33,344 bases of DNA from Flavobacteriaceae bacterium. GTDB lineage: Bacteria; Bacteroidota; Bacteroidia; Flavobacteriales; Flavobacteriaceae. The stretch spans positions 1-33,344 of the forward strand of contig JANTFW010000013.1 in NCBI GenBank assembly GCA_024763245.1. The letters run 5' to 3'. The translations under genes and the position numbers were made by a program. Below the pieces are notes generated by a model that was not told the DNA's origin, ran no database searches, and was given only the letters and a program-made list of their open reading frames with translations. Positions 9,935 to 33,344 of this stretch are shown here, in pieces; position 1 is the stretch's first letter; every line of letters begins with the position of its first letter.

Positions 9935-9943
9935 CTTACTATT

Positions 9944-9982
9944 AAAAAAAACTTCCGATAAAAATAATCGGAAGTTTTTTTT
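9944..9982 (+). terminator. Intrinsic terminator of prs-rplY
   Basis: A 9-bp GC-containing stem (9951-9959 with 9967-9975, 7-base loop) is preceded by seven A and followed by eight T (9975-9982). It lies 17 bases after the rplY stop codon. Confidence 0.9.
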
Positions 9983-9989
9983 AATAATA

Positions 9990-21261: not shown

Positions 21262-21280
21262 GCTAAACACTTTGCATAAA

Positions 21281-21320
21281 AAAAAGCCATAAGCATACCT
21301 AATGCTTATGACTTTTTTTT
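21281..21320. terminator. Bidirectional terminator ending the SusC/SusD locus
   Basis: A 9-bp inverted repeat (21288-21296 with 21302-21310) extends through one mismatch into flanking A and T tracts. It lies between the rightward LamG gene and the leftward amidotransferase-like gene, so it can serve both strands. Confidence 0.8.
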
Positions 21321-28320: not shown

Positions 28321-29043
28321 ATGTATGTAATTATTGATATCGGAAATACCCGAATTAAAACCGCTGTTTTTAAAGGCGACAAACTGTACCGCACGAAAGC
28401 TTTTGACAAGGCTTTTTTTCAAGAAGAAATCTACCAGATAAGTAGTACTAATAAAATAGATAAAGCTATTGTTTCGGCTGTGGGAAAATTGTCGGAAACA
28501 GACAGACAATTCCTTTCACAACACCTTGATTATTTTGAATTAAACAGTGGCACTAGTATCCCTTTTAAAAATCAATACGGTACCCCTAAAACTTTGGGTG
28601 TTGATAGAATAGCTTTAGCTGCTGCTGCTGTCACTAATTTTCCAAAAGAAAATGTCCTTATTTTAGATGCCGGAACTTGCCTAACCTATGATTTTGTATC
28701 GAAAGATGCGTCCTATTTGGGTGGTGCTATTTCCCCCGGAATTGGAATTCGCTATAAAAGTTTGGCCGATTATACTGAAAACTTACCCTTACTCAACAAA
28801 ACAGCGCCCATTTCTTTTATTGGTTCTTCTACTGCCGAATCTATCCATTCGGGAGTTGTAAATGGTATTTGCCGTGAAATAGACGGTATTATTGAGCAGT
28901 ATCGAGAAACCTACGAAAAATTAACAATAGTTTTAACAGGAGGGGATGCCAATTTTTTGTCAAGTCAATTAAAAAGTAGCATCTTTGTCCGACCTTTTTT
29001 TGTATTAGAAGGTCTTTACAGTATTTTGAAATATAATTTATAA
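28321..29043 (+). CDS. coaX: Type III pantothenate kinase
   Basis: Phosphorylates pantothenate, the first step of coenzyme A synthesis; cytoplasmic, 240 aa from this ATG. The start is chosen because the protein then opens MYVIIDIGNTRIKTAVF, the family's phosphate-binding strand; a start at 28261 would add 20 residues overlapping the divergent promoter region. Other signatures are GVDRIALAAAA (substrate/dimer motif) and LILDAGTCLTYDF with GGAISPGI. A TACTTTCG sequence at 28266-28273 resembles a -7 element with one mismatch. The stop overlaps the next start (TAATG). Confidence 0.94.
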   Translation: MYVIIDIGNTRIKTAVFKGDKLYRTKAFDKAFFQEEIYQISSTNKIDKAIVSAVGKLSETDRQFLSQHLDYFELNSGTSIPFKNQYGTPKTLGVDRIALAAAAVTNFPKENVLILDAGTCLTYDFVSKDASYLGGAISPGIGIRYKSLADYTENLPLLNKTAPISFIGSSTAESIHSGVVNGICREIDGIIEQYRETYEKLTIVLTGGDANFLSSQLKSSIFVRPFFVLEGLYSILKYNL

Positions 29044-30335
29044 TGATAAAACACACCAGTATACTCCTCATACTTTTTTGGGGAATTTTTAGTTACGCTC
29101 AAATAAATAATACCTCTCCTTATTCTTATTTTGGAATAGGTGATTTTAGTCAACAAAACACTCTTAGTGCCAATGCTATGGGAGGCTTTAGTGTAGCCAC
29201 AAACGGGGCTACAGAAATGAATTTTTCAAATCCTGCCAGCAATGCAGCTTTACGGTTTACCGTTTTCTCTTTAGTAGGAAATACTCGTTTTTTACAAATA
29301 AATGATGGAAGTACAAAACAGTCTTCTTCCTCAACCGCATTATCCTATTTAGCAATGGGAATTCCTATTAGTAAAAAATCAGGTGCCGTTATAGGTCTCC
29401 AACCCAACTCAAGTGTAGGCTATGCCATAACCGATGAAACCCTTGATGATTTAGACAACGTTATAGAAGTTAGTATTTATAATGGAAATGGCGGAACGAA
29501 TCGTTTTTTTGGAAGTTTTGGTTATCAAGTAACAAAAAATTTGAGCTTAGGAATTGAAGGAGAGTATGTTTTTGGTCAAATTGACAATACTATTATTAAC
29601 CAGAGGGATGAAGTTACTTTTGGAACAAGACACCGATTAATTTCTAATGTTACGGGAAGCAGTCTAAAGCTGGGAGCAATTTACCAAAAAGAAATTAAAA
29701 AAGATTTAGAACTTAAAATGGGTGCTAGTGTAAAATTGGCCAACTCATTGGACACGAACAGCGAAGAATATATGTATTCTTTTAGTTATAATAATTTTGG
29801 TGCTGAGTTACCACTTGACACTTTAGTTAACAACACCAATGTTTCCGGAAAAATTAAACGCCCACTTTTGTGGAATTTAGGTATTGGTACGGGTAAACCT
29901 CAAGTTTGGTATGCCGGAATAGAATATAAAGCCCAAAATGCCCTAAATTTTGATGCAAGTGTGTTTCAACAGAATAATAAAATTCAATATAACGCCTCAT
30001 CAAGAATAAGTATGGGTGGTTTCTGGATTCCAAAAGCCGGATCTATTACAAGCTACTGGGATAGAGTAAGGTATAGCGCCGGATTAAAATTTGAAAGCCC
30101 CGGTATCAGTATAAATACCAGCGGGAATCCAAACGATTTTACTAAGATAAATGACTTTGGCATATCTTTTGGTTTAGGTTTACCAATCGGAAACCAATTG
30201 TCCAAAGTAAATCTTGGATTTGAATACGGTAACAGAGGTAACACAACAAATGGTTTAATTAAAGAAAATTATTTTAACTTGCGCCTCGGATTAGATTTAA
30301 CCGATAAATGGTTCCGTAAACGTAAAATTAATTAA
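29043..30335 (+). CDS. Predicted outer-membrane beta-barrel protein
   Basis: A 430-aa exported protein with a signal peptide (about 1-19, ending FSYAQ), an N-terminal segment SPYSYFGIGDF common to a family of Bacteroidota outer-membrane proteins, the motif NPASNAAL, and alternating amphipathic strands ending in aromatic-tipped segments (NFRLGLDLTDKWF-like end). The N-terminal region recalls FadL-type transporters (AMGGFSVATNGATEMNFSNP), so a small-hydrophobe channel is possible, but this is weak. Its ATG overlaps the coaX stop by one base, and a TPR gene follows after 17 bases, indicating an operon. Confidence 0.78.
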   Translation: MIKHTSILLILFWGIFSYAQINNTSPYSYFGIGDFSQQNTLSANAMGGFSVATNGATEMNFSNPASNAALRFTVFSLVGNTRFLQINDGSTKQSSSSTALSYLAMGIPISKKSGAVIGLQPNSSVGYAITDETLDDLDNVIEVSIYNGNGGTNRFFGSFGYQVTKNLSLGIEGEYVFGQIDNTIINQRDEVTFGTRHRLISNVTGSSLKLGAIYQKEIKKDLELKMGASVKLANSLDTNSEEYMYSFSYNNFGAELPLDTLVNNTNVSGKIKRPLLWNLGIGTGKPQVWYAGIEYKAQNALNFDASVFQQNNKIQYNASSRISMGGFWIPKAGSITSYWDRVRYSAGLKFESPGISINTSGNPNDFTKINDFGISFGLGLPIGNQLSKVNLGFEYGNRGNTTNGLIKENYFNLRLGLDLTDKWFRKRKIN

Positions 30336-30352: not shown

Positions 30353-31732
30353 ATGAAGACTTTAACGAAACAGAAATTTTCGGTAGTAGCAATAGTATTC
30401 TTTCTATTTGCAGGGAGTTTTTTAACCAGAGCTCAGGAAGACAAAAAACAAGAGTGTAATATCAAATACAATCTATTTAGAGCTGATTATAAAAGTAAAA
30501 ATTACGATAATGCCTACGATAGTTGGTTATGGACTTTTGAGAATTGTCCTGATTTATCCGTAAATATCTATAAAAATGGGTTGGTTATTGCCAAAAACAA
30601 GTACAATAAAGCTTCAGGAAGTGATAAAATTGCTGCTAAAGCATTAATTGAAAAAATTTACAAACAACGATTAGAGTATTTCCCTAAGGATAAACCGGCT
30701 AAAATGTATAGCGAATGGGCGATGTTTTTGGATAAAGCCGGTGAAGATGAAGCAACAGTATTCGGATTGTTACAAAAAGCCTATGACACTAAACCGGAAG
30801 AAATGGGTATCAAGGCTATATTTAAATTCTTTGATGGGATCATAGAACGAAATAAAGACACCAATATTCAAGCTATCTTTGATATGAACGACAACTTACA
30901 AGATGTCGCCAACAAAAAGATGGATTATTTGTCACAAAAATTAGATAAATTAAGAGAGGTTGAGGAGTCCGGTAAGGAATTAACCCCAAAACAAACAAGA
31001 CATAAAAAAGCCTATTCTATAAATCTATCCAGTTTGGGTAAAGTAGAAGACGGATTGGGAGCTATGCTTGAAAAATATGCTACTTGTGACCGATTAATCC
31101 CCATGTACGAAAAAGAATTTGACGCCAATTCTACCAATGTAGTATGGTTAAAAAGAAGTGTATCCCGACTATATAACAAAGAGTGTACAGACGGAGCTTT
31201 TTATGATAAAATGGTAGAAACCTATGTTAATGCAGATCCTTCTGCTGAAGCCTATAAATTCTACGCCGGCTTATTGATGAAAAAAGAAGAAGAAGCAAAA
31301 GCTATCGAGTACTTCAAAAAAGCAGTTGATTTAGAGACCGATAGCTACAAAAAAGCCAACACTTTGTACTTTATTGCACAATTAATGAAGAAAAAAGGTC
31401 GTTTTGGACAAGCTAGAACCTATGCCTATCAAGCCTTAAAAGCCAGACCAAGTTTAGGGAAAGCCTATTTGTTAATTGCCAGTATGTATGCAAAAAGTGC
31501 TAAATCTTGTGGCAATGGTGTATTTGGAACTCGAATGGTGTATCAAGCCGCTTTAAACAAAGCCAGAAAGGCAAAAGCTATTGACCCAAGTATTTCTTCA
31601 ATAGCTCAAAAACACATCAACAGTTATGCTTCTAAAGCACCTTCTACAGAAGATGTATTTAACGAAGGTATCCCATCAGGTTCTCCTTGGAAAATTGGAT
31701 GTTGGATTGGCGAAACGGTACGCGTACCTTAA
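30353..31732 (+). CDS. Exported tetratricopeptide-repeat protein
   Basis: A 459-aa protein with a signal peptide (about 1-27, ending FLTRAQ) and helical repeats of TPR type. Clear repeat units include FRADYKSKNYDNAYDSWLWT and FYAGLLMKKEEEAKAIEYFK followed by ANTLYFIAQLMKKKGRFGQA and KARPSLGKAYLLIASMYAK. TPR proteins act as scaffolds; the place between an outer-membrane barrel and LptC suggests a role in envelope assembly, but no specific function is shown. A 12-base palindrome lies at 31717-31728 in its last codons. The stop codon is in the same frame as, and 6 bases before, the lptC start. Confidence 0.85.
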   Translation: MKTLTKQKFSVVAIVFFLFAGSFLTRAQEDKKQECNIKYNLFRADYKSKNYDNAYDSWLWTFENCPDLSVNIYKNGLVIAKNKYNKASGSDKIAAKALIEKIYKQRLEYFPKDKPAKMYSEWAMFLDKAGEDEATVFGLLQKAYDTKPEEMGIKAIFKFFDGIIERNKDTNIQAIFDMNDNLQDVANKKMDYLSQKLDKLREVEESGKELTPKQTRHKKAYSINLSSLGKVEDGLGAMLEKYATCDRLIPMYEKEFDANSTNVVWLKRSVSRLYNKECTDGAFYDKMVETYVNADPSAEAYKFYAGLLMKKEEEAKAIEYFKKAVDLETDSYKKANTLYFIAQLMKKKGRFGQARTYAYQALKARPSLGKAYLLIASMYAKSAKSCGNGVFGTRMVYQAALNKARKAKAIDPSISSIAQKHINSYASKAPSTEDVFNEGIPSGSPWKIGCWIGETVRVP

Positions 31733-31738
31733 TCTAAA

Positions 31739-32302
31739 TTGAATACTATAATTCTAAATAGTATCTCTAAAAGCAGTATTGTGATTTTTCTCACAATACT
31801 GCTTTTTTCGTGTACTAATGATATGAAAGAAATTCGTGATATTCTCGAGGATAAAAACCTCCCTATCGCCATTGCCGAAAACATCAATCTGGTATATAAA
31901 GATTCCGGTACTGTCACAACAAAAATGCGAAGCCCCTTACTCTACGATTTTAGTAATCGAAAAAAACATCCCTATTCCGAGTTCCCAGATGGTCTATATA
32001 TTACTAAGATTAGTGAAAAGGGCGATTCTACTAGCATTCAAGGCGATTATGCCATTAGCTATTCTAAAACTAATATCGCTGAAATAAAAGGTGATGTAAG
32101 CGTCGTTAACTATACTAAAAAATACCAGCTAAAGACCTCGCAATTATACTGGGATCAAAAACTACATTACTTTTTTTCAGAAAAAAAATTCACACTTATA
32201 ACCCCTACAGACAGTTTATACGGCACAGGGTTTGAATCTAGCGAGAATCTGAGTAATTGGCACATTAAGAATAATAGTGGTAACTTACAAGTAAGTGACT
32301 AA
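31739..32302 (+). CDS. lptC: LptC/YrbK-family LPS export lipoprotein
   Basis: Component of LPS transport, 187 aa. The fold is a single LptC/OstA-type beta jelly roll: ENINLVYKDSGTVTTKMRSP, GLYITKISEKGDSTSIQGDY, AEIKGDVSVVN and LKTSQLYWDQKLHYFFSEK. I take the TTG at 31739 as start: it gives a good lipoprotein signal (MNTIILNSISKSSIVIFLTI, lipobox LFSC, Cys25), whereas the first ATG (31823) would lack the signal entirely and GTG at 31781 would lack a charged n-region. A strong terminator-like hairpin occupies codons 11-24. Enterobacterial LptC is anchored by a transmembrane helix; a lipoprotein form is usual in Bacteroidota. Confidence 0.85.
   Translation: MNTIILNSISKSSIVIFLTILLFSCTNDMKEIRDILEDKNLPIAIAENINLVYKDSGTVTTKMRSPLLYDFSNRKKHPYSEFPDGLYITKISEKGDSTSIQGDYAISYSKTNIAEIKGDVSVVNYTKKYQLKTSQLYWDQKLHYFFSEKKFTLITPTDSLYGTGFESSENLSNWHIKNNSGNLQVSD
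31769..31808 (+). terminator. Terminator-like hairpin inside the 5' end of lptC
   Basis: A perfect 16-bp inverted repeat (31769-31784 with 31791-31806), 6-base loop TTTTTC, ends in six T (31803-31808). It starts 37 bases after the TPR stop codon, exactly where a terminator would be expected, yet it lies within the lptC signal-peptide codons. Either it ends TPR transcripts or it attenuates lptC expression. Confidence 0.75.
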
Positions 32303-32399
32303 AGATTACATTTTTAGCCGGATATTTAAAATGCTAATAAATTTTTATAATCCATCAGGAAGTTGTATTTTCGCAAACTAATTTTTAACAAAAAAGAAT

Positions 32400-33344
32400 A
32401 TGGCAGTTTTATCCAAAATTAGAGATCGTTCCGTTTTTTTAGTATTAATAATAGGGATGGCTTTATTTGCATTTGTGGTTCCTCCCAAAAAAATAATGAG
32501 TTTTTTCTCTTCTAAAAAAACAAATGCCATTGGTAGTATCAATGGAGAAGATATAACAAGAGAAGAGTTTATCGAAGAGGTTAAAGCTTACAAATCAGGA
32601 CGAAGTACAATAGACGATTCACAAGCGAGCAACGCAGTTTGGGAAAACCTTACCAGCGAAAAAATCTATTCATCGCAACTTAAAGCAGCCGGTATTGTCG
32701 TAGGAGAAAAAGATATATGGGAAGCCATTATCAATGAACCTTCCATTAAAAAAAGTCCGGAGTTTTTAAATGATGCCGGATTATTTGATGAAGAACTTTT
32801 AAAAGGGTATGTAGCTGATTTAGAAGAAGATACCAGCGCCGAAGGTAAAGCCCGTTTTCAAAGTTGGTTATCTTTTGAACGCAGTGTTAAACAAAGCTTA
32901 GAACGCAATGCCTATCTCAATCTAGTAAAAGCAGGTTTAGGAGTATCCAATATCGAAGGAAAAGACTATTACTTTTTAAATAACACCAAAGTAAATGGTA
33001 AATTTGTACTACTTCCCTATAATTCTATACCGGATAGTACAATCAGCGTTTCTGATACTGATGTGAAAAAATACATCGATGCCCATAAAAATAGCTTTCA
33101 GGTAGATGCTTCAAGAAGTTTACAATATGTAAGCTTTGATTTACAAGCCTCTGATTCCGATAAAGAAGCCATAAAGAAAGATTTAACCGACTTGATCAAA
33201 GATAGTGGCAGTTACGAAGGATTACAAAATACAACGGATTACGAGACCTTTGTTTCGGAAAATTCGGATTTACCTTTTACAGATAAAGTAGTCTTAAAAA
33301 ATGGATTAAATCCCGCTATTGCAGATAGCTTATTCAAGCTGCCT
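32400..33344 (+). CDS. PpiD/SurA-type peptidyl-prolyl isomerase, 5' part
   Basis: The first 315 residues of a protein that runs off the window. An uncleaved N-terminal membrane anchor (about 10-30; SVFLVLIIGMALFAFVV) is followed by a SurA N-terminal chaperone domain (about 43-190; NAIGSINGEDITREEFIEEV, ERSVKQSLERNAYLN). This is the PpiD arrangement: inner-membrane anchored, periplasmic, helping outer-membrane proteins fold. The parvulin isomerase domain would lie beyond the edge, so catalytic status is unknown. A TATTTTCG at 32366-32373 resembles a -7 element with one mismatch, 26 bases upstream of the ATG. Confidence 0.85.
   Translation, partial: MAVLSKIRDRSVFLVLIIGMALFAFVVPPKKIMSFFSSKKTNAIGSINGEDITREEFIEEVKAYKSGRSTIDDSQASNAVWENLTSEKIYSSQLKAAGIVVGEKDIWEAIINEPSIKKSPEFLNDAGLFDEELLKGYVADLEEDTSAEGKARFQSWLSFERSVKQSLERNAYLNLVKAGLGVSNIEGKDYYFLNNTKVNGKFVLLPYNSIPDSTISVSDTDVKKYIDAHKNSFQVDASRSLQYVSFDLQASDSDKEAIKKDLTDLIKDSGSYEGLQNTTDYETFVSENSDLPFTDKVVLKNGLNPAIADSLFKLP

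Follow-up and report, generated by a model that had tools for sequence, protein, structure and literature searches.

Terminators are normally sought between genes. The hairpin described here resembles an intrinsic terminator in its A-tract, stem, short loop and U-tract, and in its location about 30 nt past a stop codon. It differs in lying wholly within the signal-peptide codons of the next gene, lptC, a placement that is kept across the family.

Partial terminators inside operons set the relative expression of the genes on either side. The lptC hairpin would likewise lower a downstream gene relative to an upstream one, although at lptC one set of bases serves both as coding sequence and as terminator, and read-through is presumed. 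In leader-peptide attenuation of the trp type, folding of the terminator depends on the ribosome. The lptC hairpin is similar in that its folding could depend on a ribosome, but the DNA examined here lacks a leader ORF (the lptC codons themselves play that part; locus L078 of one relative, described below, is the exception) and an antiterminator was not found. A further comparison is with transcript 3' ends located inside ORFs in E. coli, some of them produced by intrinsic termination, which are described in the relevant part of one report (PMC7815308). Those transcripts also end within coding sequence; the sites treated in that part of the report are individual ones rather than a covarying, family-wide element.

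A literature search did not find a terminator element internal to lptC, and a search combining lptC, terminator and Bacteroid returned none, within a scope that left most subscription papers and preprints outside; the main text of PMC9723704 contains no occurrence of lptC. The kind of element (an intrinsic terminator) is known, whereas we found no precedent in the literature searched for one fixed in the codons of a following gene's signal peptide, covarying family-wide and with sparser parallels elsewhere in the class.

The TPR-lptC junction and its hairpin

The window (the whole stretch of 33,344 nucleotides of Flavobacteriaceae DNA that was analysed) contains a run of genes on the forward strand. 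The bamG gene (29043–30335; NF053685 BamG, E=4.9e-116) lies two genes 5' of lptC and is preceded by an ORF that we take to be CoaX-like, which probably shares a transcription unit with bamG and the TPR gene. The gene for a TPR-repeat protein of 459 aa (30353–31732; Pfam TPR_12 above cut-off) follows and ends in a TAA stop codon at 31730–31732; in nearly all relatives' loci an ORF of, as a rule, ~430–500 aa likewise stands directly 5' of lptC. The lptC ORF itself (31739–32302, 187 aa) begins with a TTG codon at 31739 and encodes a lipoprotein signal peptide with the lipobox LFSC, its Cys codon being TGT at 31811–31813. Matches to TIGR04409 (E=1.9e-15, 56.8 bits against a cut-off of 38) and PF06835 (E=2.3e-7), together with the lipobox, identify the product as LptC. 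Downstream, a SurA-N/PPIase-like gene (32400–33344; PF13623, E=5.6e-25) is truncated by the end of the window. The gap between lptC and this gene (32303–32399) is without a CNNM/hemolysin-type gene, unlike in relative G189, where the same two genes are separated by a 424-aa ORF that is presumably of that type.

A sequence-only reading of the window had described a perfect 16-bp stem with a 6-base loop and a six-T tract at the usual place of a terminator, 37 bases past the TPR stop and inside lptC codons 11–24, with the TPR stop and the lptC TTG six bases apart in the same frame. All of this was borne out on re-examination. The 5' arm AAAAGCAGTATTGTGA occupies 31769–31784 (lptC codons 11 to the first base of 16), the loop 31785–31790 and the 3' arm TCACAATACTGCTTTT 31791–31806. 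The two arms are 100% complementary, forming 16 pairs of which 5 are G-C, so that the stem is AT-rich. The hairpin begins at the 37th base past the TPR stop, and the T6 tract (31803–31808) falls in the Leu-Phe-Ser codons of the lipobox.

The predicted folding energy of the hairpin is −21.1 kcal/mol, and the surrounding 98-nt region folds with z = −6.7, a stability equalled by 0 of 200 shuffles. Four of the six T's pair with AAAA in the 5' arm. Their involvement in the stem is the probable reason that a simple terminator scan of the window did not list the site. Membership of a repeat family was rejected, the sole other match in the window's assembly being the palindrome's own reverse strand. 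Rfam gave no match at gathering score, its best being a microRNA family at 22.1 bits against a cut-off of 47.

Conservation and selection on the RNA

We collected LptC loci from 230 genomes, taking some but not all of the matches listed and leaving out duplicates within one genome. Two loci (L148 and L188) in which a lipobox was not found were dropped, leaving 228 that were scored, and a locus was called hairpin-positive at a score of at least 21 with a stem of at least 9 and a T-run of at least 4. By this threshold 160 of the 228 loci were positive. These comprise 130 of 144 loci of the Flavobacteriaceae (the window's own family, f1, assigned via nearest named relatives; sampling is uneven, with genus g35, whose stems are mostly 8–12 bp, well represented), 24 of 56 from other families of the order and 6 of 28 from other orders. 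The hairpin was also present in four of four named relatives, and Lutibacter oricola DSM 24956 (locus L291) carries it in its long form. The sequence-only reading had named disappearance of the stem from close relatives as an outcome that would refute it, and this is not what the loci showed.

The 14 Flavobacteriaceae loci below threshold include several with recognizable hairpins: L025, L145 and L172 have strong stems followed by just three T's, the stems of L093 and L102 are 8 bp long and carry T6, and L064 combines a 9-bp stem with three T's. No comparable hairpin was seen in the other eight of the 144 (L013, L065, L077, L092, L104, L142, L191 and L193). Across families, hairpins are frequent in f1 and f7, occur in 0 of 11 loci of f11 and are scattered in others. 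A further class-level set of 40 loci (one dropped for want of a lipobox) gave 11 positives among 39, one of which (L297) is doubtful, lying 149 nt from the TPR stop. Hairpins of 13–22 bp with unrelated sequence stand at the TPR/lptC junction in distant families of the class (L310 in G168, L324 in G097, L309 in G098 and L328 in G137), which suggests, as far as sequence comparison goes, either repeated origin or deep age.

Among the 144 Flavobacteriaceae loci, 105 have the hairpin axis at exactly 23 nt from the lipobox Cys codon, on its 5' side, and pairing was analysed in a set of 105 distinct gapless sequences sharing one axis. These sequences were picked for having the hairpin there, a choice that in itself raises pairing. 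In this set 92.1% of the 1575 cells are paired, compared with 73.3% when partners are shuffled and 28–56% when the arms are slid. Double-sided changes numbered 332 cells (83 shuffled, 39–78 slid) and were present at 13 of the 15 stem pairs, and the covariation score was 0.653 (0.272 shuffled, 0.06–0.15 slid). RNAalifold recovered the identical stem unaided.

In some pairs both partners are third codon positions. Three such pairs (−28/−19, −31/−16 and −34/−13) are paired in 100, 99 and 98% of the sequences, with five to six pair types. For the three inner third/third positions, the corresponding values in all 144 loci, unselected and at a fixed axis, are 85, 81 and 89%. On the LptC tree both sides of the three pairs changed on 22, 11 and 20 branches, and only 0, 1 and 2 branches, respectively, led to an unpaired state.

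Could the palindrome simply follow from the protein sequence, codon bias and a quasi-symmetric hydrophobic signal peptide together yielding complementary arms? The null score is somewhat higher in the Flavobacteriaceae (16.3, versus about 12–13 in many other families), as that explanation would have it. When codons were shuffled synonymously with the protein held fixed, however, the observed hairpin exceeded the null at p<=0.05 in 127 of 143 Flavobacteriaceae loci and at p<=0.005 in 97 of 143. Codon choice points the same way. Every Phe codon in the T-tract of relatives is TTT (174 of 174, against a background of 76%), including 72 of 72 at −3 and 102 of 102 at −2; TCN accounts for 82 of 83 Ser codons at −1 (58% background); and Val at −11 is encoded by GTC in 63 of 77, although GTC is a rare codon (5% of Val). 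The synonymous shuffles, the wobble-wobble covariation of 98–100%, the codon choice and the covariation of the 105-sequence set together refute a protein-driven palindrome, to which we attach a practically negligible probability. Chance origin was rejected as well, by the region shuffles and the synonymous shuffles.

A general habit of lipoprotein signal peptides was examined with BamD as a control, in 30 Flavobacteriaceae genomes (30 of the 40 genomes above the BamD cut-off had loci). Among these signal peptides, synonymous shuffles gave p<=0.05 in 2 of 30 and p<=0.005 in 0 of 30; a hairpin score of at least 24 was reached in 0 of 30, and the explanation was rejected on that basis. The comparisons show that RNA structure and T-tract are strongly selected at synonymous sites across the Flavobacteriaceae. 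Most letters have changed among relatives, yet the same bases keep both a hairpin and a signal peptide. The locus offers a clean system for asking how selection at the RNA and protein levels shares bases.

Placement of the hairpin relative to the two genes

In hairpin-positive Flavobacteriaceae loci the distance from the TPR stop to the hairpin has a median of 29 nt (IQR 28–33). For comparison we took 40 ordinary terminators from 400 kb of G189, a complete relative; these have a median distance of 23 nt, a stem of 14 and a T-run of 6 (the lptC sites being included among the 40); the lptC hairpins match these values. The hairpin thus has a stable stem-loop, a U-tract directly after the stem, a site shortly past a gene end and compensatory change, as an intrinsic terminator should, and its loop is free in both length and sequence among relatives. 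In the same 400 kb, terminators in the first 100 nt of a next ORF were limited to both copies of lptC and one questionable site, at which the ORF start was probably called too early; clear examples inside an ORF start are confined to lptC.

The two lptC copies of G189 belong to a partial tandem duplication (L277:6600–10286 on G189:C1) with two TPR genes and two copies of lptC, the second of which is internally deleted and encodes just 104 aa. Identical sequence recurs 1976 nt apart and takes in parts of the TPR gene, the hairpin and the start of lptC. This duplication could be real or an assembly effect.

In several loci the hairpin and the lptC start have parted. In L078 (genome G205) lptC has a new signal peptide and restarts 84 nt past the TPR stop, and the hairpin stays at +30; an overlapping ATG opens a 27-codon ORF that reads NYIVIAHAVTMFFY through the intact hairpin and represents the former LptC signal peptide. 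From its sequence, this arrangement looks like a leader peptide plus terminator. In L024 (G012) the LptC ORF opens with a pair of consecutive signal-peptide-like segments; the first has lost its lipobox Cys, and the hairpin is still at +28. In L223 a hairpin with T8 lies at +23 in an intergenic gap and lptC begins at +81, and in L039, of family f30, the hairpin is at +18 in a gap 5' of the lptC start; L313 and L314, also of f30, look like L039 in this respect. The hairpin remains beside the TPR stop in all of these (L078, L024, L223 and the three f30 loci), and the element can therefore stay with the TPR 3' end.

Other loci show the converse. Five relatives of the same genus gave an lptC match; in these the hairpin lies 34–98 nt past the TPR stop and is still in lptC codons, and in L005–L007 and most of g35 the TPR stop is 72–98 nt away with the hairpin again in lptC codons. 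For most of g35 taken separately the distance is about 72–92 nt, and the hairpin there is mostly 8–9 bp. A hairpin kept in lptC codons at such distances implies that the signal-peptide position also holds it, or that the TPR end changed later. Part of the pull on its position thus appears to come from the lptC side.

Proposed partial termination and the alternatives

We think it likely that the hairpin is an intrinsic (Rho-independent) terminator of the bamG-TPR unit, co-encoded with the LptC signal peptide and read through in part. It would close the transcription unit comprising bamG and the TPR gene, the stem coding for the hydrophobic core of the signal peptide and the U-tract sitting in the lipobox codons for Leu/Phe-Phe-Ser. 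On leaving the TPR gene, RNA polymerase would stop at the hairpin in part of the rounds. Since lptC starts 5' of the hairpin, its full-length mRNA would come solely from the remaining rounds. Each full-length lptC transcript would have to read through the hairpin or be rescued by a ribosome, and the terminator would set LptC (and perhaps the downstream PPIase too) lower than the TPR protein. We infer termination in the cell, its partial nature and the resulting expression ratio; partial read-through is supposed solely because lptC is presumably needed. Points that count against the terminator reading are the AT-rich stem, the absence of the site from the generic scan's list, the loci in which the hairpin lies far from the TPR stop yet in lptC codons, and the 14 of 144 Flavobacteriaceae loci below threshold. 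The motif TAnnTTTG is the Bacteroidetes −7 box. It occurred near the TPR end in 12 of 112 loci and in a control stretch in 9 of 112, giving no sign of a promoter of lptC's own. We believe that a partial terminator lowering lptC relative to the TPR gene is the simplest reading.

The sequence-only reading had gone further and proposed that ribosomes finishing the TPR gene and restarting on lptC mask the hairpin, so that it acts as an attenuator. In such a translation-gated arrangement ribosomes ending the TPR gene would re-initiate at lptC and enter the hairpin, and read-through would track upstream translation. This is a possible special case of the terminator reading with an added regulatory layer, and we consider it unlikely while granting it a real chance. 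An in-frame lptC start codon lies within −8 to +11 of the TPR stop in 111 of the 129 hairpin-positive Flavobacteriaceae loci with a TPR stop, 37 of those 111 being ATG overlaps of the TAATG type, and L078 retains its discarded signal peptide as an ORF spanning the hairpin, with lptC restarting downstream. In addition, Bacteroidota are not named among the phyla classed as 'runaway' in the pertinent part of a 2026 study of transcription (PMC13323073), and RNA polymerase and ribosome may therefore run coupled here. Stop and start adjoin in loci that lack the hairpin too, however (9 of 14), and in L223 and L039 the hairpin stands before the lptC start. A hairpin at a median of 29 nt past the stop probably also clears a ribosome sitting on that stop, given the usual ribosome footprint. 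Nor was there an excess of antiterminators: in complementarity the 5' arm scored 14.2 with its own 150 nt of upstream sequence and 13.8 with swapped sequence, with 0 of 112 loci at a value of at least 24, and a mutually exclusive antiterminator was rejected over those 112 loci and 150 nt. A stronger version, in which a dual-code attenuator operates across the Bacteroidia, LptC being made only when a re-initiating ribosome breaks the hairpin and LPS export being tied to bamG-TPR translation, strikes us as rather unlikely; were it true, L078 would be a natural uncoupling of the signal-peptide and terminator codes. The earlier interpretation as a whole is thus partly supported, in that the element appears terminator-like, lies at the TPR 3' end and overlaps signal-peptide codons.

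Covariation establishes a conserved RNA structure and not its activity, and the hairpin might instead serve the RNA in some other way, as a processing or stability element, a binding site for a protein or sRNA, or a pause in translation of the signal peptide. We regard this as improbable, since synonymous-site selection also acts on the T-tract directly 3' of the stem, the distance from the upstream stop is typical of ordinary terminators, BamD signal peptides are without such a structure, and the loop is unconstrained. A misplaced lptC start, which would leave the hairpin plainly intergenic, deserves mention because the window uses TTG and has no in-frame ATG from the TPR stop to the lipobox. 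It seems to us very improbable: in 144 of 146 Flavobacteriaceae loci the lptC frame contains a hydrophobic segment that ends in Cys, almost all of them have that frame uninterrupted across the hairpin, and the next in-frame start in the window (a GTG) would shorten the signal peptide.

Under the partial-terminator reading, expression of lptC, a probable LPS-export gene, would have to pass a stop signal placed family-wide inside the gene's own start. Synonymous changes in these lptC codons should then alter expression, which matters for genetics in Flavobacteria, and the junction provides a system in which to ask whether ribosome-polymerase coupling in Bacteroidota sets the levels of outer-membrane biogenesis.

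Elsewhere in the window, further strong inverted repeats are located at 260–291, 9937–9989 and 21278–21320; these are probably ordinary terminators.
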